From contig JANTFW010000003.1 in the NCBI GenBank assembly GCA_024763245.1, forward strand, positions 1 through 64,000: a stretch of DNA of 64,000 nt, given 5' to 3'. The notes under the pieces were generated by a model. That model was not told the origin of the DNA and did no database searches. It saw only the letters and a program-made list of their open reading frames with translations. Position 1 is the first letter of the stretch. Each line of letters begins with the position of its first letter. A program made the position numbers and the translations under genes. Positions 186-62,077 of the stretch are shown piece by piece. The stretch comes from Flavobacteriaceae bacterium (GTDB taxonomy: Bacteria > Bacteroidota > Bacteroidia > Flavobacteriales > Flavobacteriaceae).

Positions 186-2504
186 TTAGTTTCCTTTTTC
201 CATTTTTGCTTTTAAAGCTGCTAAAGTTTCATTTACATCTCCTAAAGTTGTAGGGTCTGCATTTTCAACTTTTTTTGCAGCAGCTTTAACTGCTTTTTCT
301 TCTTCTTCTTTATAAGTAGCAGAGTGAGACACCACAATTCTGCGGTATTCTTTACTAAATTCAAGTACCATGAATTCGGCTTCGTCTCCTTTATTAAGTT
401 TGCTACCATCTTCTTTCGTCATATGTCTACCCGGCATAAAGGCTTCTACGCCGTCGTCAAAAATAACAATAGCACCTTTATCCACTTTTTCTTTGACTGT
501 TCCTTTATGTTTAGAACCAACAGTATAGTTTTCTTGATGTTGATCCCAAGGATTTTCAGTAGTTTGTTTATGACCAAGATTTAGTTTGTGCTCTTCTACA
601 TTAAGTTCTAAAACTTTCACCTTTAGTTCGTCGCCAACACTTACAAAGTCTGAAGGATGTTTAATTTTCTTAGTCCAAGAAAGATCAGAGATATAAACCA
701 ATCCGTCAATACCCTCTTCCAATTCAACAAACACACCAAAGTTAGTATAATTTCTAACTTTACCGGTATGAACCGAACCGACAGGATATTTTTCCGTTAC
801 ATCAGCCCAAGGATCTTTACTAAGTTGCTTCATTCCAAGAGACATTTTACGTGCTTCACGATCTAAAGTAAGAATTTCAACATCAATGACATCCCCTACT
901 TTTACAAAATCAGAGGCTGAACGTAAGTGCGTTGACCAAGACATTTCCGAAACGTGAACTAGTCCTTCGACACCTTCGGCAACTTCTACAAACACACCAT
1001 AATCGGCAATAACGACTACTTTACCTTTAATTCTATCACCTACTTTTAGATTAGAATCCAAGGCTTCCCAAGGATGTTCGCTCAATTGTTTTAGCCCTAA
1101 CTGGATACGTGATTTATCTTCATCAAAATCTAAGATAACAACATTGATAGTTTGGTCGAGCTCTACGACCTCATTAGGATGCGATATACGACTCCAAGAA
1201 AGATCTGTAATATGTATTAATCCATCTACACCTCCTAAATCGACAAAGACACCATACGAAGTAATGTTTTTAACCACACCTTCTAATACTTGTCCTTTCT
1301 CTAATTGACTGATGATCTCTTTCTTTTGTTCTTCAAGATCTGCTTCGATTAAGATTTTATGAGATACTACAACGTTTTTAAATTCGTGGTTAATTTTAAC
1401 CACTTTAAATTCCATATTTTTTTCAACGTATTGGTCGTAATCACGAATTGGTTTAACATCAATCTGAGATCCAGGCAAGAATGCCTCAATGCCAAATACA
1501 TCTACAATCATACCACCACGTGTACGACATTTTACAAAACCGGTAACTACTTCGCCTGATTCATGGGCCGCATTAACACGATCCCAAGCTTTAATTACAC
1601 GGGCTTTACGATGAGATAATACTAATTGTCCGGTGTTATCTTCTCTTTTATCAACAAGAACCTCTACTTTATCTCCAACTTTTAAAGCTGGGTTATAACG
1701 GAACTCGTTTAAAGAAATTACACCTTCTGATTTTGAATTAATATCAATAATTGCCTCTCTGTCAGTCATTCGTATAACAGTACCATCAATAACTTCACGT
1801 TCATTAACAAAACCTACAGTACCTTCTAAAGCGGCTTCAAAATCTTTAAGATGTTCTTCATCAACTTCTTCAATGCCTTCTTCGTATTTATGCCAGTCGA
1901 ATGTATCTAAAAATTCTTGTGGGTCAACCTGAGGTTCTTCTTTCGCTTCTTCTTCGGAGGTTAATTCAGCAACAGGATCTGCAACGTCTTCAACCACTTC
2001 TTCTACCACTTCAGGGCTATGCTCTTTTTGTTTTTCTACAACTTCTTTAGTTGCTTTTGCTTCTACTTTCTCTTCAACAACTTCCTTAACTTCTTCTTTC
2101 TTGTTTTCTACTTCTGATTTTTTAGCAACGGGAGCTTTCGCTTCTTTAGGTTTATCTGCAGCAGCATAAACATCGGCTTTATCAAATTTTACTACTAATA
2201 AGTAATAAAAAATAGCCCGATACTTATTTCGGTTTGATTTGCCCATTTGCTCACATACTTCTGCAATAGCAGTATCTAAGGCTTCGCTATCTTCAAGGCC
2301 TAATTTTTTGATTAAAAAATTCTTTTTAACCGTTGTAAGCTCATCAGCTTGTGAACAAGAAACAACCTCTGCATCTTTCTTATAAATAGATGGGCCTAAA
2401 CCTTTGGTTACTTTTCCAAACAAATCGGCATCTAAAGTAATACCCAACTGGTTTGCTTCTTGTGAATAAAATTCAATCTTTTCTTGTAATTTTGACATAG
2501 TCAA
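186..2504 (-). CDS. rpsA: 30S ribosomal protein S1 with an N-terminal DUF2853-like extension and an E/K/V-rich linker
   Basis: Multiple S1 repeats (GQVLEGVVKNITSYGVFVDLGGVDGLIHITDLSW and similar); N-terminal ~115 aa resembles DUF2853 (KKNFLIKKLGLEDSEALDTAIAEVCEQMGKSNRNKYRAIFYYLL). Confidence 0.95.
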   Translation of the reverse strand: MTMSKLQEKIEFYSQEANQLGITLDADLFGKVTKGLGPSIYKKDAEVVSCSQADELTTVKKNFLIKKLGLEDSEALDTAIAEVCEQMGKSNRNKYRAIFYYLLVVKFDKADVYAAADKPKEAKAPVAKKSEVENKKEEVKEVVEEKVEAKATKEVVEKQKEHSPEVVEEVVEDVADPVAELTSEEEAKEEPQVDPQEFLDTFDWHKYEEGIEEVDEEHLKDFEAALEGTVGFVNEREVIDGTVIRMTDREAIIDINSKSEGVISLNEFRYNPALKVGDKVEVLVDKREDNTGQLVLSHRKARVIKAWDRVNAAHESGEVVTGFVKCRTRGGMIVDVFGIEAFLPGSQIDVKPIRDYDQYVEKNMEFKVVKINHEFKNVVVSHKILIEADLEEQKKEIISQLEKGQVLEGVVKNITSYGVFVDLGGVDGLIHITDLSWSRISHPNEVVELDQTINVVILDFDEDKSRIQLGLKQLSEHPWEALDSNLKVGDRIKGKVVVIADYGVFVEVAEGVEGLVHVSEMSWSTHLRSASDFVKVGDVIDVEILTLDREARKMSLGMKQLSKDPWADVTEKYPVGSVHTGKVRNYTNFGVFVELEEGIDGLVYISDLSWTKKIKHPSDFVSVGDELKVKVLELNVEEHKLNLGHKQTTENPWDQHQENYTVGSKHKGTVKEKVDKGAIVIFDDGVEAFMPGRHMTKEDGSKLNKGDEAEFMVLEFSKEYRRIVVSHSATYKEEEEKAVKAAAKKVENADPTTLGDVNETLAALKAKMEKGN

Positions 2505-48705: not shown

Positions 48706-49611
48706 TTAGTAATTCCAAAGATCCAATTCTTTATTTCGAATATCATCTTTGAGTTTCTCGGATTCAAGGACTTGGAAAAGAGAGTTTCCTTTTACGTAAC
48801 TCTTTACTTCTCTATCTCCGTGAATATTTTCTTCTTTATAGATTAATGAACTAAAGCGATGTGCATTGAGTAGATGATCAAAAGATATTGGAAAAGCGGC
48901 ATTCTTTGGGTTAAATACTTTCATATCGTGCATAACCTCTCTGGCATCCGGATAGAAAACCCAAAATAAAGGCAATTTTTCATTTATATCACCAATATCA
49001 TCACGTCCCAGGGTTTGTACATCGGGTGCGATGGGAGCAATACCCAGCAATCTATACTTCATCTCACCTTGACGTTTATCAATATACCAAACTCCTTTAA
49101 TTTTATACCCTTCGATATGTTGAGAATCGATATTATATTTATCAATATACTCAGAAATATCAGCATTAGGATCTGAATTTAATATATCATACGCTTCAGG
49201 TAGGGTATCTAAACGATAGGTCTTTTCTTGAATCTCTTGATAGGATAATTTCGCAGTAAAATAAGAATCGTCATAGATTTCTGTAATTTTTCCTTGCTTT
49301 ATTCCTCTTAAAAGGGTATCATAAAGCGAGCGTCTATTATTAGAAATACGCATGGTGTCTATAGGATAATAGTAGGGTAAATTTAGTCGTTCATTCAAAT
49401 CTACATATTCCCAAACTATTTTAGACCAATACAAATCACGATCATCAATATAACCATAGGGTAATGGTTTATCATTATCTGCCGCAAGTTGCTGTTCCGT
49501 CTTTTTACCTATTTGTTGTGGCTTTTTAGCATTCAACAAATTAGTTTGTGCTTGCACAAGGCTAGTCACAAAAAAAACGATACTTACTATTACTAATTTA
49601 CTTCGATTCAT
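48706..49611 (-). CDS. gldN: Gliding motility/T9SS protein GldN
   Basis: DDRDLYWSKIVWEYVDLNERLNLPYYYP and gldKLMN gene order. Confidence 0.93.
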   Translation of the reverse strand: MNRSKLVIVSIVFFVTSLVQAQTNLLNAKKPQQIGKKTEQQLAADNDKPLPYGYIDDRDLYWSKIVWEYVDLNERLNLPYYYPIDTMRISNNRRSLYDTLLRGIKQGKITEIYDDSYFTAKLSYQEIQEKTYRLDTLPEAYDILNSDPNADISEYIDKYNIDSQHIEGYKIKGVWYIDKRQGEMKYRLLGIAPIAPDVQTLGRDDIGDINEKLPLFWVFYPDAREVMHDMKVFNPKNAAFPISFDHLLNAHRFSSLIYKEENIHGDREVKSYVKGNSLFQVLESEKLKDDIRNKELDLWNY

Positions 49612-49622
49612 TTTATTACGTA

Positions 49623-51167
49623 TTATTTAATCTCAACCAAAACAGGTGAGGCGGGTTTTATTCTATAGCCGGCACCGGCACCAACAAGAGTAGATTTAAT
49701 ATCAAAGATAGAAACGACATCTCCTCTTTTAGCTCTTGATATAGCGCTTTGGGCTTTGGCATTCATTCTGGATCCATTTACCTTAACAGTAGCTTGACCC
49801 GGTACTTTAAGACTAAAAGATGTTGTTCTTAAAGTTAAATCAAACACAAAATCGGGTAATACAACACCTACCGAAGCTTTAGCTAAACTGGCTTTAGGCA
49901 TACCCACTTGACCGGTTTGTTTACGTATGGCACCTCTAGGAGCCGGAATATCCATCACACGGAAAGTTTTAGACGAACTAACGGTCTTACCATCCGACAT
50001 TTTTGCCGATGCTGTAATAGAAACTTCTTTACCTTTTCCCGGTGTCATCACATACTTACCTCCATTTCCTGTTAAATTTCCTGATGAGGCTCTAACAGAA
50101 ATTTTATTCGTAGAGATTCCCGGAATAGAAACCGTCATAGGATTGGCTAAACCTCTGTAAACTACATTCATTTTATCTGCAGATATTACGGCCTCATTAG
50201 GTCTTGGAATTACAGAATATTTACCACCAACAATATCAATTTCTACAGGTTTACCCTTTTCCATAAAGACAAACTTTCCTTTTAGTTCATGGTCTCCTAC
50301 ATTACCGGCAGATCGATCAATAATTACTTGACCTGCTTGTATGCTGGATTCAGGCACTTCGGAACCGTTAATAATAACTTTACTCGCTTTTAGTGTCGGG
50401 TCATTTTTACCTAATACAATTTTGGCTTTGAGACGCTCATTAGAATAATAAGCACTCTTTTCGAACACCACCATAGCATCGTAATTGGTCATAGAAACAT
50501 CACTTTCTAACTGACCACCAAGCAATGTATTGTAAACATCGGTTTCTGTAGTTCGGATATCTGCTTGAATTTGTTCTATGTTAGTTACTGTAGTGATTAG
50601 AGGAAAACCTTCAAAATGGCTTTCTAACCAATCGTGATGTTGTAATTTATTTTTCACCTCATCTTCTGTAGAAAAACGTTTTTCGACTTGAGCTCTTAAC
50701 TCGGCATTATTACCAATAACCTCTAAAGCCTTTTCTCTATAATTATTGATACTTTCTACAAATTTATCACCGTTTTTAGTGTGTTTTCCTTTTAAGAAAA
50801 AATAGGCATCACCGGCACCCGAATTATCCATTTTTTCATAATCTTTAGGATCTTCCACTTTTTTGGTAAGTTCTTTTTTTACTTCTTCTAGATACGCATT
50901 AAACGCATTGGAAGCATTGCTCAATGTTTGTGCTTTTGCATTTAAAGTTAAATACTTGTCCGGCTGCTCTGTTGCTTTCATTGCCAGATTGGTAAGAATC
51001 TTTTTATTAGCAGCATCCACTTTTATATTAGATGCTTCTAATTTTTCTTTCATAAATCCAAAAGACGATAATACTTTCTTACTCATATTTAATGCGAGCA
51101 TCGCAATAAATACCAGATACATCAAGTTAATCATCTTCTGCCTTGCTGATAATTTTCCTCCTGCCAT
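49623..51167 (-). CDS. gldM: Gliding motility/T9SS protein GldM
   Basis: MAGGKLSARQKMINLMYLVFIAMLALNMSKKVLSSFG and gene order. Confidence 0.96.
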   Translation of the reverse strand: MAGGKLSARQKMINLMYLVFIAMLALNMSKKVLSSFGFMKEKLEASNIKVDAANKKILTNLAMKATEQPDKYLTLNAKAQTLSNASNAFNAYLEEVKKELTKKVEDPKDYEKMDNSGAGDAYFFLKGKHTKNGDKFVESINNYREKALEVIGNNAELRAQVEKRFSTEDEVKNKLQHHDWLESHFEGFPLITTVTNIEQIQADIRTTETDVYNTLLGGQLESDVSMTNYDAMVVFEKSAYYSNERLKAKIVLGKNDPTLKASKVIINGSEVPESSIQAGQVIIDRSAGNVGDHELKGKFVFMEKGKPVEIDIVGGKYSVIPRPNEAVISADKMNVVYRGLANPMTVSIPGISTNKISVRASSGNLTGNGGKYVMTPGKGKEVSITASAKMSDGKTVSSSKTFRVMDIPAPRGAIRKQTGQVGMPKASLAKASVGVVLPDFVFDLTLRTTSFSLKVPGQATVKVNGSRMNAKAQSAISRAKRGDVVSIFDIKSTLVGAGAGYRIKPASPVLVEIK

Positions 51168-51210: not shown

Positions 51211-51861
51211 TTATCCTTTATTCATAGCACTAAGCATACCACCATAAACACCGTTTAAGTTTTTAAGGTTAGATGCCATAGACTCCATCTGTTCTTTTAA
51301 TGCAGCAGCATTATTAGCTACTTCTTCATTAATAGTTGCTTGACGACTAGCACTCTCTAGTTGCACTTTGTACAAGCTGTTTAAAGATTCCATTTGCGAA
51401 GCGGCCATAGCCAATTGCTCGCTATATTTATTAGTAGCCGAAATAGAATCTGCAGCGGGTTTAATTTGTTCCGCAGCTCCCTTAAAGTTTTCGATGCTTT
51501 CACCTAAACTTGCCATTAAATTGGCATCTAATTTAGCATCTTTAAGCATAGCGTCTAACTTTTGAGAAAGCATGCTTTGTGCTTCCGAGGCTTGTAATTT
51601 ATCTTTTCTTTTATCTTGACTCTTGCCATCCGCTAATTCAGGATATACTTTAGACCAGTCCAGATCTTCCTCTACGGGTTCGAAAGCTGAAATAGCAAAA
51701 ATTACTGCTTCAGTTCCAAGACCTATCATTAAAAGAATATCTCCGGTTAAAGGACCTATTCCCATGTGAAGGATTTTAAACAATGCTCCGATGATTACTA
51801 CAGATGCACCTAAACCGTAGGCCATGTTAAAAAATTTCTTTACTGCTTTTGATTGTGCCAT
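51211..51861 (-). CDS. gldL: Gliding motility/T9SS protein GldL
   Basis: FFNMAYGLGASVVIIGALFKILHMGIGPLTGDILLMIGLGTEAVIFAISAFEP and gene order. Confidence 0.96.
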   Translation of the reverse strand: MAQSKAVKKFFNMAYGLGASVVIIGALFKILHMGIGPLTGDILLMIGLGTEAVIFAISAFEPVEEDLDWSKVYPELADGKSQDKRKDKLQASEAQSMLSQKLDAMLKDAKLDANLMASLGESIENFKGAAEQIKPAADSISATNKYSEQLAMAASQMESLNSLYKVQLESASRQATINEEVANNAAALKEQMESMASNLKNLNGVYGGMLSAMNKG

Positions 51862-51905: not shown

Positions 51906-53270
51906 TTATTTTCCTGATAAACTGGTTCCTAAATAGTCTTGTACTGTTCTAAATCCAATGTAACTACGTGCGGTATCGGCATACTCATAATCCCTAGAGC
52001 TCACCTCTAAGAAATAGGCCATGTCTTTCCAAGATCCACCGCGAATAACTTTTCTGTGATTTAATCGATCTTCTACATTAGGATTCATTGTAGAACCTAA
52101 GTAATATGAATTCTCATTATAAGCCGTTCCTGTCCATTCCGAAACATTACCGGCCATATTATACAATCCATAGCCGTTTTTGTTATAGGATTTTGCTTCC
52201 ATAGTGTACAATGCTCCATCCACAGCATAATCTCCTCGTGCCGGTTTAAAATTGGCTAAGAAACAACCTCTATCACTTGTAGTATAAGGATTTCCCCAAG
52301 GGTATTTAGCATATTCCAGCCCACCACGTGCAGCATATTCCCACTCTGCTTCCGATGGTAAGCGAAAATGAGGCACTCTACTGGCATGTTTTCTAGAACG
52401 AAGATAATCATTTTTCTTTTTAGTTCTCCAACTGGCAAAGGCCCTCGCTTGATTCCAAGTAACACCAACAACCGGGTAATCGGCATAGGCTTGATGCCAG
52501 AAATAATCTTGATGCATAGGATCATTGTAGGAATAGGCGAAGTCTTTTACCCAAACAGTTGTATCCGGATATACGGGTACTGTTTCATGAATAATTTGTT
52601 CTTTACGTGTAGTTCCTTTACGAGCAGCTGCTTCTCTATCTAACCAAGAGAATTTATATTTTAATTTTGTAACATCAATCATACGTCTACCATCAAAACT
52701 CTCGTCTAAAGGTACATACATCGTATCCATTACTTCTGCATATTCCATACTTGGAAAATCTCCGGTGTTCCAAATCAAATCATTTTCCCAATTGAGAAAA
52801 CGTCCTTGTGTTGGAGAATTCACATCACCTAAACTGCCATAATTTTCCATCATATATCGGATGTAAATACTACCATTATCGGTCGTATCTTTAAATCTAT
52901 AGTCGGCTAAAGGGCCATCAGTAGCCCCATCACCTCCGGAAAGCTCATCAGCAAGAATAGCTAATTTTGTTCTAACAATAGAATCACGTACCCAAAAAAC
53001 GAACTCTTTATATTCGCTATTGGTAATTTCTGTTTCATCCATATAAAACGGGCGAACGGTTGCTGTACGTGCAGGGGTGTTTAGTGCTCCTATATCATCT
53101 TCATCTTGTTTACCCATGGTAAATGTCCCACCGGGAACAATAACCATTCCTGTTGGAGTTTCAGCGTGCCAAGTACTCTTGGTACTAACCCCTACTAAAT
53201 CACCTTTGTCGTTGGATCCGCAGCTATAAGCTAACGAAATAAGCAAAATTAAAATTGCTGTTTTTCTCAT
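51906..53270 (-). CDS. gldK: Gliding motility/T9SS lipoprotein GldK
   Basis: Lipobox AYSC; formylglycine-generating-enzyme-like fold (PGGTFTMGKQDEDD, LPSEAEWEYAARGG, NVSEWTGTAYNE); gene order. Confidence 0.95.
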   Translation of the reverse strand: MRKTAILILLISLAYSCGSNDKGDLVGVSTKSTWHAETPTGMVIVPGGTFTMGKQDEDDIGALNTPARTATVRPFYMDETEITNSEYKEFVFWVRDSIVRTKLAILADELSGGDGATDGPLADYRFKDTTDNGSIYIRYMMENYGSLGDVNSPTQGRFLNWENDLIWNTGDFPSMEYAEVMDTMYVPLDESFDGRRMIDVTKLKYKFSWLDREAAARKGTTRKEQIIHETVPVYPDTTVWVKDFAYSYNDPMHQDYFWHQAYADYPVVGVTWNQARAFASWRTKKKNDYLRSRKHASRVPHFRLPSEAEWEYAARGGLEYAKYPWGNPYTTSDRGCFLANFKPARGDYAVDGALYTMEAKSYNKNGYGLYNMAGNVSEWTGTAYNENSYYLGSTMNPNVEDRLNHRKVIRGGSWKDMAYFLEVSSRDYEYADTARSYIGFRTVQDYLGTSLSGK

Positions 53271-53296
53271 AATATATTACTATTTCTAAAAGCGTG

Positions 53297-53329
53297 TAAA
53301 CCTATAATTATTTTTTGAATTACACAAAA
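53297..53329 (-). promoter_or_regulatory. Candidate promoter for gldKLMN
   Basis: Minus strand TTTTG-N20-TAGGTTTA, one mismatch to TAnnTTTG, just upstream of gldK. Confidence 0.4.
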
Positions 53330-53361
53330 CGAATATTTAATTATTTCTTGTTTCTCTTTTC

Positions 53362-54564
53362 TCAACTTAATTTTCTTCTATTTAGATACCATCTTTCGGG
53401 TATTTCTTGACGACTTGCACTTAAATAATCATTATAAGTACAGGGTATTAACGTACGTCTTTTCGTTTTATTATTTTCTTTTACTTTAATTTCCATCCAC
53501 CATCGAGCACTTTTGTCACTTTTATAGAATTGAAAAGTTTCGTCATCAATTAAAACCATATATTTTTTAAAACCTTGTAAATCTACTGAGGGAAACTCAT
53601 AAGAACGATAATTAAACCCTTCTATAAAATACCAAATCATTTGAGCGATTAGTTCTGCTGTTTGTTTTCCGTTATCTTGTGAAGCATTATATTCAAAAAT
53701 TCCAAAAACGCTTAACTTATCACTCAATCCGGCGTAACGTGATATTTTACAAATGGTATCTGCATCAAAACCACTGATTAATGCATTATTATTACCGGGA
53801 GCATCTGTCTTTCGAACAGCTCCTAGATCAATACTCAGCAAATCAGTATCTCTTAACACCGGTTCTACGAGCTCAATCTCATTTTTTACAGTACCTAACC
53901 TATAGGAATCAAATAATAAAGTATCTAATAAATTAATTTCATCCTGTGGATTGAGAAAAGTTTGATAGCCTATATTCGTAAAGTTGAAAAGATTATTGGG
54001 CTTTTCCATTACTATTTTTGTCAAGTACGATCGTGAATCTATTTGATTCGCTATCATCCCTAAATCAAATCGCGCATCTACAACACTAAGATTCACTTTT
54101 TGCTCTAATGAATCAAAGGCTCTGTAAGCAGCATAAGTTAAAGCTTGACTTCCACCAATAAGTATGGGTGTGTGTTTGCGTATAAGCAAATAGGTAATCA
54201 CTTCGGTAACTGCCGTTTCGGTATCGCCAATACTTGCTCCTGTTTTAAGATCCCCTAAATCAATAATTTTAGTATTCCAATTTCCCGCATAAAGTTGGTA
54301 AAACTCTTTCCTCATAACAGAAAGGTCGTTCCCTGTCCCTTGGTTATGTACAGCATTTCTACTTTCAGGAACACCAAAAATTACGAGTGTATTTTGTATT
54401 TCTTCTAAGTCATTTTCTGTAGCTGTCATCAAAATAGATTGCCCGATAGTCCCCTTAGGAAGGCCATAGGCAAAGGTTTCTAATGCATTGGAAACAGGAC
54501 TAAAAAAATCACTTAAATTATTCATATTTGGGGAGCAAACTTCAGGGGTAATAAAAGTATGCAT
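53362..54564 (-). CDS. Arginase/formimidoylglutamase-fold protein with altered metal-binding motifs
   Basis: LIGGSQALTYAAYRAF, LSVVDARFDLG and LLSIDLGAVRKTDAPG align with GGDHS, DAHxD and SxDxDxxDP. Confidence 0.8.
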   Translation of the reverse strand: MHTFITPEVCSPNMNNLSDFFSPVSNALETFAYGLPKGTIGQSILMTATENDLEEIQNTLVIFGVPESRNAVHNQGTGNDLSVMRKEFYQLYAGNWNTKIIDLGDLKTGASIGDTETAVTEVITYLLIRKHTPILIGGSQALTYAAYRAFDSLEQKVNLSVVDARFDLGMIANQIDSRSYLTKIVMEKPNNLFNFTNIGYQTFLNPQDEINLLDTLLFDSYRLGTVKNEIELVEPVLRDTDLLSIDLGAVRKTDAPGNNNALISGFDADTICKISRYAGLSDKLSVFGIFEYNASQDNGKQTAELIAQMIWYFIEGFNYRSYEFPSVDLQGFKKYMVLIDDETFQFYKSDKSARWWMEIKVKENNKTKRRTLIPCTYNDYLSASRQEIPERWYLNRRKLS

Positions 54565-54611: not shown

Positions 54612-57101
54612 TTATTTCTTTTTTATACTACTTCGCTTTGTTTTTTTCTTTTTGGGTGTTTTTTTTGCTATTATTTCTTTCACTTTTTCAAGTGTTAATT
54701 TTTCAACCTTTGTTGTTTTAGGTAATTCAATTTTAAGTTTACCTTTACAGATATTATAACGACCCCATCTTGCCTTTTCGACTCTAATTCCTTCTTCTTC
54801 CCAATTCAAGAGTATCTTATCAATATCTTTCTGTTTTTTGATTTCAATGAGCTCCACAATATCTTCTTGTCTCAAATTATCAAAATCGTATTTCTTATTC
54901 ACATTGATAAACTGATTGTTCCATTTAATAAAGGGGCCAAATCTACCCACACCTTTCTGTACCGGTAATCCTTCGTATTCGGCTATAGGCGCATCCGCTT
55001 TTTGTTTAGCGACAATAAGATCTATTGCCTCTTCTAAAGTTAGTTGCATCGGATCCGTACCTTTTGGTAAGGACACAAACATTCCGTCATACTTAATATA
55101 AGGTCCAAAACGTCCGTTAGAAACAATTACTTCGGCATCTTTATAGCTTCCTAACTCTTTTGGAAGCTGAAACAAGTCTAGTGCTTGTTCAAAAGTAATA
55201 TTACTAATAGTTTGGGATCCCTGAAGACTAGCGAATCTAGGTTTTTCTTCATCTGTAACTTCTCCTATTTGCACCATAGCACCGTAACGGCCTAGGCGAG
55301 CATACACATTTTTACCACTGATAGGATCAACACCTAATAGTCTCTCTCCTTTGGCTCTCTCGGCATGTTCTGATACGTGCAACACATTGGGATGAAAATC
55401 ATCATAAAATTCTTTAATGATTCCGGTCCACTCTTCTTTACCTTCAGCAATTTTATCAAAATCTGACTCCACCTTGGCCGTAAAGCCAAAATCCATTACG
55501 TGTTGAAAATTTTGAACCAAGAAATCATTTACTACTTTGCCAATATCGGTTGGAATTAGTTTTCCTTTATCCGCACCTACTACTTCCATCCCTTTCTTTT
55601 CTGATAGGGTGTCATCTTGAAGTTTAATGGTAACAAAGGCTCTTTTCTTACCTTCTAAGAGCGGTTTTTCAACATATCCACGCTTTTGAATGGTTGAAAT
55701 GGTTGGCGCATAAGTCGATGGACGACCAATACCCAGTTCTTCTAATTTTTTAACTAATGCAGCTTCAGAAAAACGATAGGGTGGTTTGGTAAAACGTTCA
55801 GTAGCCGTAATAAAATGGTTGGTCAGTATCTCATTACGATGCATTTTTGGTAACATACCGGATTGCTCCTTATCATCACCATTATCAGTACCTTCAATAT
55901 AAACTTTTAAAAATCCATCAAATTTAATTACCTCTCCATTCGCCGTAAAAACTTCCTTATTATTCGTGTTGGCAATTTTTACATTAGTTCGTTCTAATTG
56001 TGCATCACTCATTTGTGAAGCTATGGTACGTTTCCAAATTAAACTATAAAGTCTATCCTGATCATAATCGACAGATATACTACTATTTTTCATATTGGTT
56101 GGTCGAATAGCCTCGTGCGCCTCTTGAGCTCCTTTAGATTTTGTCGTGTAATTTCTCGGTTTACTATAGGCTTCTCCATAGGTTTCAACAATTGTGGCCT
56201 TTGCGGCAGATTTGGCATCATTAGAAAGCGTTACACTATCCGTTCTCATATAAGTAATTAAACCGGACTCATACAAACGTTGTGCTGTTCGCATTGTTTT
56301 GGCAACAGGAAAATACAATTTTCTTGAAGCCTCTTGTTGTAAGGTAGAAGTAGTAAAAGGAGGTGCCGGTGATTTTTTAGCCGGTTTTACCTGTAAATCA
56401 TCAACCTTAAAGGTGGCCCGAATACACGATTCTAAAAATGCTTCTGCTTCTTTACGCGTTTTATAATTTTTGGGTAGTTTTGCTTTAAACTTTTTACCTT
56501 CTTCATTGCTAAACTCAGCATCAATTCTATAAGAAGCTACGGGTATAAAATTTTCAATTTCTCGTTCTCGCTCTACTATAAGCCGTACTGCTACAGATTG
56601 TACACGACCCGCAGATAAACCAGTTTTAACTTTTTTCCAAAGTACCGGTGATAACTCGTAACCCACTAAACGATCTAAAACTCTTCTGGCTTGTTGTGCA
56701 TTGACCAAGTTGTAATTTAAATCCCTTGGATTAGCAACAGCATCTAATATAGCTTTCTTTGTAATTTCATGAAATACAATACGTTTTGTATTGGCAGACT
56801 TTAGTTTAAGTTGTTCGTACAAATGCCAAGCAATGGCTTCTCCCTCTCGGTCTTCATCACTAGCCAACCAGACTGTTTCAGCCTTTTTCGATAGCATTTT
56901 GAGTTTTTTTATAACATCCTTTTTATCTTCTGTTACAATATATTTAGGTTTAAAGTTTCCTTCAACATTTACACCCAACTCCTTAGATGGTAAATCGGCG
57001 ATATGTCCAAAGCTTGAGGCTACTACAAAGTCCTTTCCTAAAAACTTTTCGATGGTTTTTGCTTTTGCTGGGGACTCAACTATTACTAAATTTTTGGACA
57101 T
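54612..57101 (-). CDS. topA: DNA topoisomerase I
   Basis: MSKNLVIVESPAKAKTIEKFLGKDFVVASSFGHIADLP, SGLITYMRTDSVTLS catalytic Tyr, C-terminal repeats. Confidence 0.97.
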   Translation of the reverse strand: MSKNLVIVESPAKAKTIEKFLGKDFVVASSFGHIADLPSKELGVNVEGNFKPKYIVTEDKKDVIKKLKMLSKKAETVWLASDEDREGEAIAWHLYEQLKLKSANTKRIVFHEITKKAILDAVANPRDLNYNLVNAQQARRVLDRLVGYELSPVLWKKVKTGLSAGRVQSVAVRLIVEREREIENFIPVASYRIDAEFSNEEGKKFKAKLPKNYKTRKEAEAFLESCIRATFKVDDLQVKPAKKSPAPPFTTSTLQQEASRKLYFPVAKTMRTAQRLYESGLITYMRTDSVTLSNDAKSAAKATIVETYGEAYSKPRNYTTKSKGAQEAHEAIRPTNMKNSSISVDYDQDRLYSLIWKRTIASQMSDAQLERTNVKIANTNNKEVFTANGEVIKFDGFLKVYIEGTDNGDDKEQSGMLPKMHRNEILTNHFITATERFTKPPYRFSEAALVKKLEELGIGRPSTYAPTISTIQKRGYVEKPLLEGKKRAFVTIKLQDDTLSEKKGMEVVGADKGKLIPTDIGKVVNDFLVQNFQHVMDFGFTAKVESDFDKIAEGKEEWTGIIKEFYDDFHPNVLHVSEHAERAKGERLLGVDPISGKNVYARLGRYGAMVQIGEVTDEEKPRFASLQGSQTISNITFEQALDLFQLPKELGSYKDAEVIVSNGRFGPYIKYDGMFVSLPKGTDPMQLTLEEAIDLIVAKQKADAPIAEYEGLPVQKGVGRFGPFIKWNNQFINVNKKYDFDNLRQEDIVELIEIKKQKDIDKILLNWEEEGIRVEKARWGRYNICKGKLKIELPKTTKVEKLTLEKVKEIIAKKTPKKKKTKRSSIKKK

Positions 57102-59289: not shown

Positions 59290-61914
59290 CTAAAGATTTA
59301 GATCTTTTATCAATTGGCCCATAATCTCATCTTTGGAATACTCCGAAGCTCGCTTTAAAGCATTTCGTTTGAAGCTATCCTTTAAACTTGGATTTTCAAA
59401 GTATTGAATGATAAACTTTGATAAGCCATTGGCGTTGGAAGCTACATAGCCACATTTTTTATGTTCAATGATATCTTTTGGACCTTTAGCTTTGTAGGCT
59501 CCTACGGGCAGTCCACAACTTAATGCTTCTAAAACCACCAATCCAAAAGTATCAAAATTAGACGGCAGTACTAACATATCAGAAGCTGAATATATAGCCG
59601 GTAGCTCAGTACTGTCCACCCAACCTAAAAAGAGTGCTTCCGACAGCTCTTGTTTTAGTTGACCTTCAGCAGGTCCTGTTCCTACAAACACCACCTGGAC
59701 TTTATCAACCTCTTTCGCCACCTTATGATAAATTGAGACAATATCCATAACTCCTTTTTCTTTACTCAATCGGCCAACATACAATAAAACTTTTTGATTA
59801 CTACTAATATTAAAAACGGCTTCTTTATCTGTTTTGACAGGGGTGAAATTTTTGCTAACCCAATGACCTGTTTTGTATATTTTAGCATTATCATATTCCA
59901 TTTCATTACTGGCCAACCATTTTTTATGATCGTTGTTCAGTACAAAGAGCTTATCAAAATTCTTATAAAATACTCTTAGTAATCGTCTTACTTTATCTGC
60001 TTGGTGTTGATCCATTCCAATATTTTTGCGAGCAAACATTATCCAATCGGTATGGATATAGAAGTACGCAGGAACTGTAAAAGCATTTTTTAAAATAATA
60101 GAAATAAAACCCATAACACCTTCTGTAGAGCTCATAATTCTATCATAGTTGTTTTGCAGAAATAATTTATGAATTTTATTAATATTTGGAATACGTAAAG
60201 ACTGTCCTTTATAGTTTGGGATTTCTATTTCTAATTCTGGTTTAATTACTATAAGATGTTCATCTGCTTTTAAAGTGTCACTACAGACCAAAAGGTCAAT
60301 AGGTAAGTTTAGTCGCTTTATCTCTGTATGCATCTCTTGCAGTGCTTTAGAAACCCCATTTTTGTCTTCGAAAGTATCGGTTAACCACAGCATTCGTTTG
60401 GGATGCTTCAAAACACCTAATTCATCAGAAAACTCATTGAGTAATTCTCTGTTGTTGTAGAGCACTTTTGAACTCAAGAAATTCGTTCCAAATATCAATG
60501 TAGAACTTAAAAAGGGGAATGATAAACCGTCCAAGAAAGTACTTACTTTTTTCTTTTGTTTTTTTTCAATATGGTCACGAAGGTTAGGTGAAAATTCTAA
60601 ACGCTCAATCATATTTTCAAAATTGAAATTTTCTATTGTTATCTCATTTGAAGTCTTATCTATCTTTTTTTGAAGTCTTTTAAAAAATATACCATTAAGT
60701 TTATCATTTATATCATTGATGCTTCTATAGAAATTCGATGTCATCTCTGCTGGCTCGATATGATGCGCTTTAACAATGTTTAAGGCTTCGTTAAAAATAG
60801 GTTTAAAGGTTTTCTTTACCGCTAGTTTAGTGAGCTTATTTGGGCTTTTCCCAACAAAAACCTTATGAAATAATTTGATAAATTTCATTGTTGTTTTATG
60901 ATGTTTTAACTCTGTAAAGAGATTAGAAAGTAAAACAGCAATTAATTTATCTTGCGTATTGCCTTTGTGAAGTACCATACGTATTAAATCGGGCTTCTCA
61001 AAATTAATAGCTACCTGAAAAATATAGTCTAGAAAGGCAATGGTAAGTTTTTCTATATTTTGATGTCCGCCATAAGGAATTATTCTATGTTCACGAATGG
61101 CTTCTAAAGCTAAATACGATTTAGAGGAAGTTTTTAACCTTTCCTGTAAATTAGGAACATAAAGATAAGAACCGGTATGACCGGCAAATATTCCCATATG
61201 ATCATCGGAACCTCCTGTTAAGGTTTTTTTGAATGGGTTTTGCGTATATAAGTTTACATCTATATCAAATCTTTCGGCATCTTTTTTTAATTGTTCAGGA
61301 GTTAAATTAGTAATCCATTCTTTTACCAACATATTTTGCCAAGTATCGCGTTGCCCATTCAAAACCTCAAAACGTTCAAATATTAGCGCCATCTTGGAGA
61401 AGAAATCAAAAGAGGGTTGTTTGCCTACTGCATAATGATATAGCGGATGTGCCCATACTGTAGGAATATTTTTCTGGTGTGTGTACTTTAAAAATTCATA
61501 TACATTGTATCGTAACTTGTTTAGTTTTACTTCGTCTTCTTTTGTAAAACCATAGGTTAAAATATGTATGCCCACTTTAAAATCGGGAACAGTGACACTA
61601 AATTCCGTTCCAGTTAGAATATCGAAACCTTCTTCTTGTAATTGCCAACACGATGTTGCATTATTATGATTTGTAATGGTAAAAGTATCACATCCACTTT
61701 TTTCTAATCTCTGTATTAAATCTTTTGACTGCAACCAAGTCTCCGGAACACCTAAAATCCGCCCCAAAGTTTCATCAGGAATTTTACTATTATAATCATG
61801 GCAATGAAGGTCAATTTTTAATAAATCATCTTGATTATATCCTTTTAGTTGCGTTTCTAAAAATAATTCAAGATTACTTTTTAATTGCTCTTGAAAAGAG
61901 TTTGTTTTTGACAT
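59290..61914 (-). CDS. PHP-domain phosphoesterase-like / GT4 glycosyltransferase fusion
   Basis: PHP motifs IDLHCHDYNSKIP, TITNHNN, GTEFSV, WAHPLYH, GGSDDHMG; GT4 motifs LWLTDTFEDKNGVSKAL, LLYVGRLSKEKGV, FDTFGLVVLEALSCGLPV; start set to MSKTNSF. Confidence 0.9.
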   Translation of the reverse strand: MSKTNSFQEQLKSNLELFLETQLKGYNQDDLLKIDLHCHDYNSKIPDETLGRILGVPETWLQSKDLIQRLEKSGCDTFTITNHNNATSCWQLQEEGFDILTGTEFSVTVPDFKVGIHILTYGFTKEDEVKLNKLRYNVYEFLKYTHQKNIPTVWAHPLYHYAVGKQPSFDFFSKMALIFERFEVLNGQRDTWQNMLVKEWITNLTPEQLKKDAERFDIDVNLYTQNPFKKTLTGGSDDHMGIFAGHTGSYLYVPNLQERLKTSSKSYLALEAIREHRIIPYGGHQNIEKLTIAFLDYIFQVAINFEKPDLIRMVLHKGNTQDKLIAVLLSNLFTELKHHKTTMKFIKLFHKVFVGKSPNKLTKLAVKKTFKPIFNEALNIVKAHHIEPAEMTSNFYRSINDINDKLNGIFFKRLQKKIDKTSNEITIENFNFENMIERLEFSPNLRDHIEKKQKKKVSTFLDGLSFPFLSSTLIFGTNFLSSKVLYNNRELLNEFSDELGVLKHPKRMLWLTDTFEDKNGVSKALQEMHTEIKRLNLPIDLLVCSDTLKADEHLIVIKPELEIEIPNYKGQSLRIPNINKIHKLFLQNNYDRIMSSTEGVMGFISIILKNAFTVPAYFYIHTDWIMFARKNIGMDQHQADKVRRLLRVFYKNFDKLFVLNNDHKKWLASNEMEYDNAKIYKTGHWVSKNFTPVKTDKEAVFNISSNQKVLLYVGRLSKEKGVMDIVSIYHKVAKEVDKVQVVFVGTGPAEGQLKQELSEALFLGWVDSTELPAIYSASDMLVLPSNFDTFGLVVLEALSCGLPVGAYKAKGPKDIIEHKKCGYVASNANGLSKFIIQYFENPSLKDSFKRNALKRASEYSKDEIMGQLIKDLNL

Positions 61915-62077
61915 ATATACTTTTTGCAAAAAAAAGATTAACAAGTTAAAAGAGCGTTAACATATAATTGTTTTATTATTAATTTATCGCTATGAGTTTG
62001 TTAATGTCACCTTTCTTTAAATGGCTACCAACTAATTGCTATAGACAATAGTATTAACAAAAATTTACCGCTGACAA

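Follow-up and report, generated by a model that had tools for sequence, protein, structure and literature searches.

An arginase-fold protein encoded beside gldK that has lost metal-ligand residues: a candidate pseudoenzyme family of the Bacteroidia

Metal-less ureohydrolases and the place of ARG among them

In arginase, the MnA ion is held by the first His and three Asp, and the MnB ion by the middle His together with D124, D232 and D234. Proteins of this fold that have departed from such an arrangement are already on record. The arginase-like protein of Trypanosoma brucei is reported to have evolved its arginase fold with no binuclear manganese cluster (Hai et al. 2015, doi 10.1021/bi501366a). 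Within metformin hydrolase, the MetCb (or MefH-beta) subunit is inactive and metal-less, and it binds and enables the active partner MetCa (PMC11271267, PMC11399263). The existence of further arginase-like proteins without metal and with no function assigned has also been reported, and the same work cites a loss of function in the arginase domain of the Fusobacteriaceae ornithine decarboxylase/arginase (PMC11271267).

The protein described here, for which the name ARG is used, is encoded at 53362..54564 on the minus strand of a 64,000-nucleotide stretch of a Flavobacteriaceae genome (the window), as an open reading frame of 400 amino acids as called. Metal-less ureohydrolases being already known from the T. 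brucei protein and MetCb, ARG adds to them a class-wide family with a new C-terminal domain. This family has lost metal ligands, forms a single clade, is conserved throughout the class under purifying selection, keeps a fixed neighborhood and carries an exclusive C-terminal module. Formimidoylglutamase, HutG (TIGR01227; PDB 3m1r, 1xfk, 4mxr), shares the fold and provides both the best structural and profile matches and the closest curated model, whereas ARG lies far below the equivalog cut-off, has lost the MnB ligands, possesses an extra C-terminal module of 80 residues and lacks histidine degradation genes beside it in the loci examined. The T. brucei protein, as reported, also has an arginase fold without the binuclear cluster, but it is eukaryotic and does not constitute a class-wide bacterial family in a conserved gene block; we know of no C-terminal module of the ARG type in it. 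MetCb resembles ARG as a metal-less ureohydrolase, in its case kept as a protein binder, but it is encoded beside the active MetCa, whereas the ARG host genome (91% complete) holds no active paralogue. The Fusobacteriaceae domain, bacterial too, is cited as having lost its function, but it is fused to a decarboxylase and belongs to another phylum. No functional study of ARG and no work linking gldK with a ureohydrolase or formimidoylglutamase was found in the literature searched, where the sole match for gldK and arginase was an apparently unrelated pathogen paper.

Metal ligands, fold and C-terminal module

Although the reading frame was called from 54564, the true start of ARG is probably M14 (54525), since this residue is nearly invariant and the homologues begin there. 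The sole Pfam family found in the protein is Arginase (PF00491, 56.5 bits against a cut-off of 22), which places it in the superfamily by sequence profile. The best NCBIfam model is hutG (TIGR01227), with 75.4 bits against an equivalog cut-off of 229, so that a formimidoylglutamase label is unearned, as the preliminary description had anticipated. No signal peptide could be seen by eye, an absence from which a cytoplasmic location would follow.

Three motifs define the state of the metal site, all of them read from the minus strand: GGSQ (residues 137-140, G137-G138-S139-Q140; 54145..54156), in which the His ligand has become Gln; DARFD (residues 163-167; 54064..54078), in which the middle His has become Arg (R165) between the retained D163 and D167; and SIDLG (residues 244-248, including S244; 53821..53835), in which D246 is kept and the last Asp has become Gly (G248). 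The phmmer alignment with the solved agmatinase 3pzl pairs them with GGEH, DAHSD and SVDMD, and a profile alignment sets the same positions of the family against GGDN, DAHHD and SVDMD of the Bacillus subtilis formimidoylglutamase; the change of three of six ligands, noted when the locus was first read, thus holds against both references. In rat arginase numbering, as we assign it, the equivalents of H101, H126 and D234 are Q, R and G. Of the two His and four Asp expected of a catalytic ureohydrolase in GGDHS, DAHxD and SxDxD, ARG has kept three, and E291 is retained alongside D163, D167 and D246. Judged from the aligned residues, the MnB position is destroyed and the three Asp of MnA survive. 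The exchange of His for Gln is by itself weak evidence of metal loss, because the annotated formimidoylglutamase 3m1r has Asn at this first ligand (GGDN); on the same alignments, the telling changes are those of the middle His and the last Asp.

Members throughout the class lack the ligands at these positions, which argues against chance or sequencing error. Among 160 aligned rows of the family, two canonical paralogues included, Q occupies the first ligand position in 141, the middle position carries K in 64 and R in 47, and the last carries G in 53, S in 52 and N in 26 (together 131), the E291 position being Asn in 40. For 154 members every one of the six ligands was scored, and in no case do the middle His and the last Asp occur together; three ligands are kept in 131 of them, four in five and more than four in none. 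Most of 17 canonical homologues from the same phylum, some of them from the same genomes as ARG members, keep the metal motifs. The middle Lys or Arg may fill the hole left by the metal with a positive charge. Since D163, D167 and D246 survive in most members, one metal ion at the MnA remnant, bound by three Asp and the Gln, is conceivable, as is a different chemistry. Outside the ARG family, a ureohydrolase of a different class in the phylum (L207, G491:C62:71500-73500, ORF 261-1208, plus strand) reads DAHTN and TMDMG, a separate loss of ligand residues.

The AlphaFold2 model of ARG, built with 70 family sequences, is a confident arginase fold (pLDDT 90, pTM 0.91), a structural check that had been proposed with the initial reading. 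The fold domain spans approximately residues 57-320 (53605..54396, minus strand; Pfam stretch 60-313), and its best Foldseek match in the PDB is the formimidoylglutamase 3m1r (E 1e-16, probability 1.00), with metformin hydrolase and the Trypanosoma cruzi formiminoglutamase among the further top matches. It is followed by the C-terminal module, about 80 residues (318-400; 53365..53613, minus strand) with invariant RWW, PC and Y, which is modeled between residues 332 and 399 as four strands and two helices. This tail matched no Pfam family, nothing below E 0.08 among PDB sequences and, searched alone, nothing below E 0.9 among PDB folds; weak matches such as those to PARP WGR domains, with E above 2, were treated as noise. 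A tail profile found no stand-alone copies in 25 genomes and no tail in four genomes tested outside the class, so that among the genomes tested the module occurs only inside ARG.

Conservation within the family has moved away from the metal center. This emerged when a core set of 29 members was compared with 13 very divergent ones and with 17 canonical enzymes. The old pocket residues Q140, D163, D167 and D246 are kept in only 38-54% of the divergent members, whereas 77-100% of these members retain R222, E234, P235, R238, A278, G279, W311 and G316, as well as the tail residues F346, W355, W356, C375, D379 and Y380. The canonical enzymes rarely or never have R222, E234, P235, R238 and W311; three of these residues make up the family-specific EPxxR motif (E234, P235, R238; 53851..53865, minus strand), which is kept where the active site has dissolved. 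Because these helix motifs and the tail outlast the pocket, the selected function seems to reside in them and not in the old pocket, and R222, E234-P235-R238, A278-G279, W311, F346, W355-W356, C375 and D379-Y380 probably form a new putative binding site between fold and tail. A very divergent remnant in another family (L170, 8202-9149, minus strand; f66) retains an RWW/DY/PERW tail and adjoins a DUF4837 gene.

Distribution, selection and gene neighborhood

In a survey of genomes drawn evenly from the class, the ARG family is present in 276 of 295 Bacteroidia genomes, a count that takes in a few weak or fragmentary matches. Full-length relatives within the order are 29-68% identical. A search of the phylum outside the Bacteroidia yielded matches of partial length, most of them covering the arginase part; those that were read are ureohydrolases without the tail. 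In a maximum-likelihood tree of the fold, obtained by a quick search and containing long branches, one branch with an SH-aLRT of 99 splits 40 ARG-family members from 16 canonical ones; the family being one clade apart from the canonical enzymes, a single event suffices for the loss of the metal site. Nearly all relatives within the class share the ancestral ligand loss and the conserved extra tail. ARG is under purifying selection, with a median dN/dS of 0.049 in 14 close pairs against 0.035 for GldK, 0.092 for GldL and 0.030 for TopA, all of them rough values as dS is often near or above 1, close to saturation. It diverges faster than its neighbors, with about 44% identity where GldK and TopA keep about 60%. 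One family member (G115:C1:921214-922323, seen in loci L146, L159 and L162) has several in-frame stops and is either a pseudogene or the product of assembly errors.

In the window, ARG stands between topA, encoding DNA topoisomerase I (54612..57101), an upstream neighbor assigned by curated families and conserved class-wide, and gldK/porK (51906..53270; TIGR03525, 579 bits), which is followed by gldL/porL (51211..51861; TIGR03513), gldM/porM (49623..51167; TIGR03517) and gldN/porN (48706..49611; TIGR03523), all of them on the minus strand; the position directly upstream of gldKLMN, described from the outset, is borne out, with a gap of 91 bp to gldK. A FAD-dependent oxidoreductase (PF01266, 47585-48631) lies downstream of gldN in the window, as it does in most Flavobacteriaceae loci and in a few other families. 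Further away, an 884-residue reading frame (59290-61944) carries a C-terminal glycosyltransferase (PF00534), its N-terminal half of about 500 residues being PHP-like by eye with no Pfam match.

The complete order topA-ARG-gldKLMN, then a flavoprotein, is found in 62 of 80 named loci, nearly all of them from Flavobacteriaceae and many of the remainder cut by contig ends. With one genome per family, gldK is in place beside ARG in 38 of 55 families, inverted matches in two families left aside, mostly as topA-ARG-porP-gldKLMN; porP is absent from the block in the family of the window. Nevertheless, topA is near ARG in 42 of 62 loci and gldK in 42 of 62 as well, so that the gene order links ARG to topA no less than to the type IX secretion system (T9SS), and several families hold ARG away from both genes. 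Where it lies outside the gldK block (L230, L282, L261, L257), an SDR-type epimerase divergently adjoins ARG in three families (f55, f74, f49), and an S13 peptidase adjoins it in two genomes of one family; these recurrent neighbors have no common theme.

The gap between ARG and gldK (53271..53361, minus strand) contains a promoter-like sequence, TAGGTTTA. A TAGGTTT[AG] element, a pattern chosen after inspecting the data, precedes gldK by 34-53 bp in 47 of 74 named loci, compared with 0.7 expected in shuffles, and we take it to be close to the Bacteroidota -7 consensus. The strict promoter pattern TTG-N17-23-TANNTT[TC]G was discarded, being found in only 9 of the 74 loci. The element is likely the gldKLMN promoter, and its conservation suggests that gldK probably starts its own transcript.

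Whether ARG follows the T9SS was addressed by its phyletic pattern. In 253 near-complete genomes of the class, ARG and GldM are both present in 238, ARG only in 2, GldM only in 7 and neither in 6, an association with a Fisher p of 1.3e-7 when ancestry is ignored; among the genomes with neither, two are reduced and three belong to a single family. The two genomes with ARG only, G314 (99% complete) and G117 (95%), encode intact proteins scoring 473 and 601 bits, and GldM, GldL, GldB and SprA_N are all absent from them. Conversely, seven near-complete genomes (G165, G228, G257, G284, G300, G348 and G076) have GldM and no ARG homologue. In T9SS loci without ARG (L163 and L166, by Pfam), porP-gldK stands on its own, and an older form of ARG upstream of gldK was searched for in such genomes and discarded, as no homologue turned up at those loci, which contain porP and various other genes, with DprA at one of them. 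GldB has no value as a gliding marker, since almost every genome gives a match, even a Bacteroides control. A complete one-contig genome of the same genus as G314 (G098) has GldL and GldM with no SprA_N match, possibly a T9SS in decay. ARG is neither lost with the T9SS nor present wherever it is found: it outlives the system in two genomes, which rules out strict membership, and a T9SS-specific role, though possible, cannot account for everything. A part in this system can be hypothesized from the neighborhood.

Explanations weighed and significance

The explanation that we consider probable, with reasonable though not high confidence, is that ARG is a catalytically dead ureohydrolase whose site was lost once, which gained a module and which has been kept as a non-catalytic binding or scaffold protein of the cytoplasm. 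A single loss of the dinuclear metal site, in a HutG-like ancestor, would date back to the base of the Bacteroidia or earlier; the lineage would have gained its C-terminal module of 80 residues; selection would then have kept the protein for binding or scaffolding in the cytoplasm; and the conserved site would have moved from the metal center to the new helix motifs and the RWW/PC/DY tail. ARG would thus dispense with catalysis and act by binding a protein or a small ligand. The fold, the incomplete binuclear site and the evidence of selection, taken from sequence and model, agree with a metal-less ureohydrolase pseudoenzyme, and the pseudoenzyme proposal of the preliminary description is upheld by the lack of a complete ligand set in any member, the separate clade, the new module and the purifying selection. 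The conservation of the substitutions and of gldK synteny in relatives, which it had put forward as checks, hold across the class. Its suggestion of a role in T9SS or gliding fares in two ways, since class-wide synteny with gldK speaks for it, whereas the genomes with ARG and no T9SS, and those with GldM and no ARG, speak against it.

A stronger form of that suggestion has ARG regulate or couple the T9SS/gliding motor from the cytoplasm, acting at the cytoplasmic side of GldL/GldM or on the expression of porP-gldKLMN. We regard it as unlikely: the place of gldK in 38 families and the correlation with GldM are countered by those same exceptional genomes, by families in which ARG and gldK are unlinked, by the promoter-like element that gldK has of its own and by a proximity to topA as frequent as that to gldK. 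To be held just as tentatively is a broader version, in which ARG is an overlooked cytoplasmic regulator whose new RWW/PC/DY domain and relocated site sense a metabolite and adjust the adjoining T9SS/gliding machinery, lineages devoid of T9SS keeping another, older partner. It is distinctly improbable that ARG has remained an enzyme and works, with altered chemistry, as a mononuclear or metal-free hydrolase through the kept Asp, Q140 and E291; most core members retain D163, D167, D246 and E291, with Q140 close to fixation, which means that the pocket is not random, but no member has a full MnB site, E291 is replaced by Asn in 40 of the 160 rows and several divergent families retain the tail and EPxxR after losing the entire pocket.

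An inactive partner of an active ureohydrolase, as MetCb is for MetCa in metformin hydrolase, finds its precedent in that metal-less subunit (PMC11271267) and in the presence of metformin hydrolase among the best fold matches. Given that the host genome, 91% complete, contains no second PF00491 gene, ARG has no active paralogue there to which it could be the silent partner; no active ureohydrolase adjoins ARG in the loci examined either, and this account is very improbable. Scarcely credible, finally, is a decaying pseudogene carried between topA and gldK: the fast divergence of ARG relative to GldK and TopA would suit it, but it is already contradicted by the selection and conservation data: the frame is open in almost every genome, the gene is present throughout the class, dN/dS is low, some residues are invariant and ARG survives outside the block.

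The dead, binding ureohydrolase favored here has consequences for the reading of these genomes. ARG occurs in more than 90% of the sampled Bacteroidia genomes, and its best curated-model scores are to enzyme families whose chemistry it probably cannot perform, so it would mislead annotation pipelines that use it to predict the degradation of histidine or arginine. Its function is readily testable in Flavobacterium johnsoniae, where the neighboring genes are standard gliding and secretion genes. ARG would be among the most widely conserved dead ureohydrolases, with a tail domain that corresponds to no known family or solved fold.
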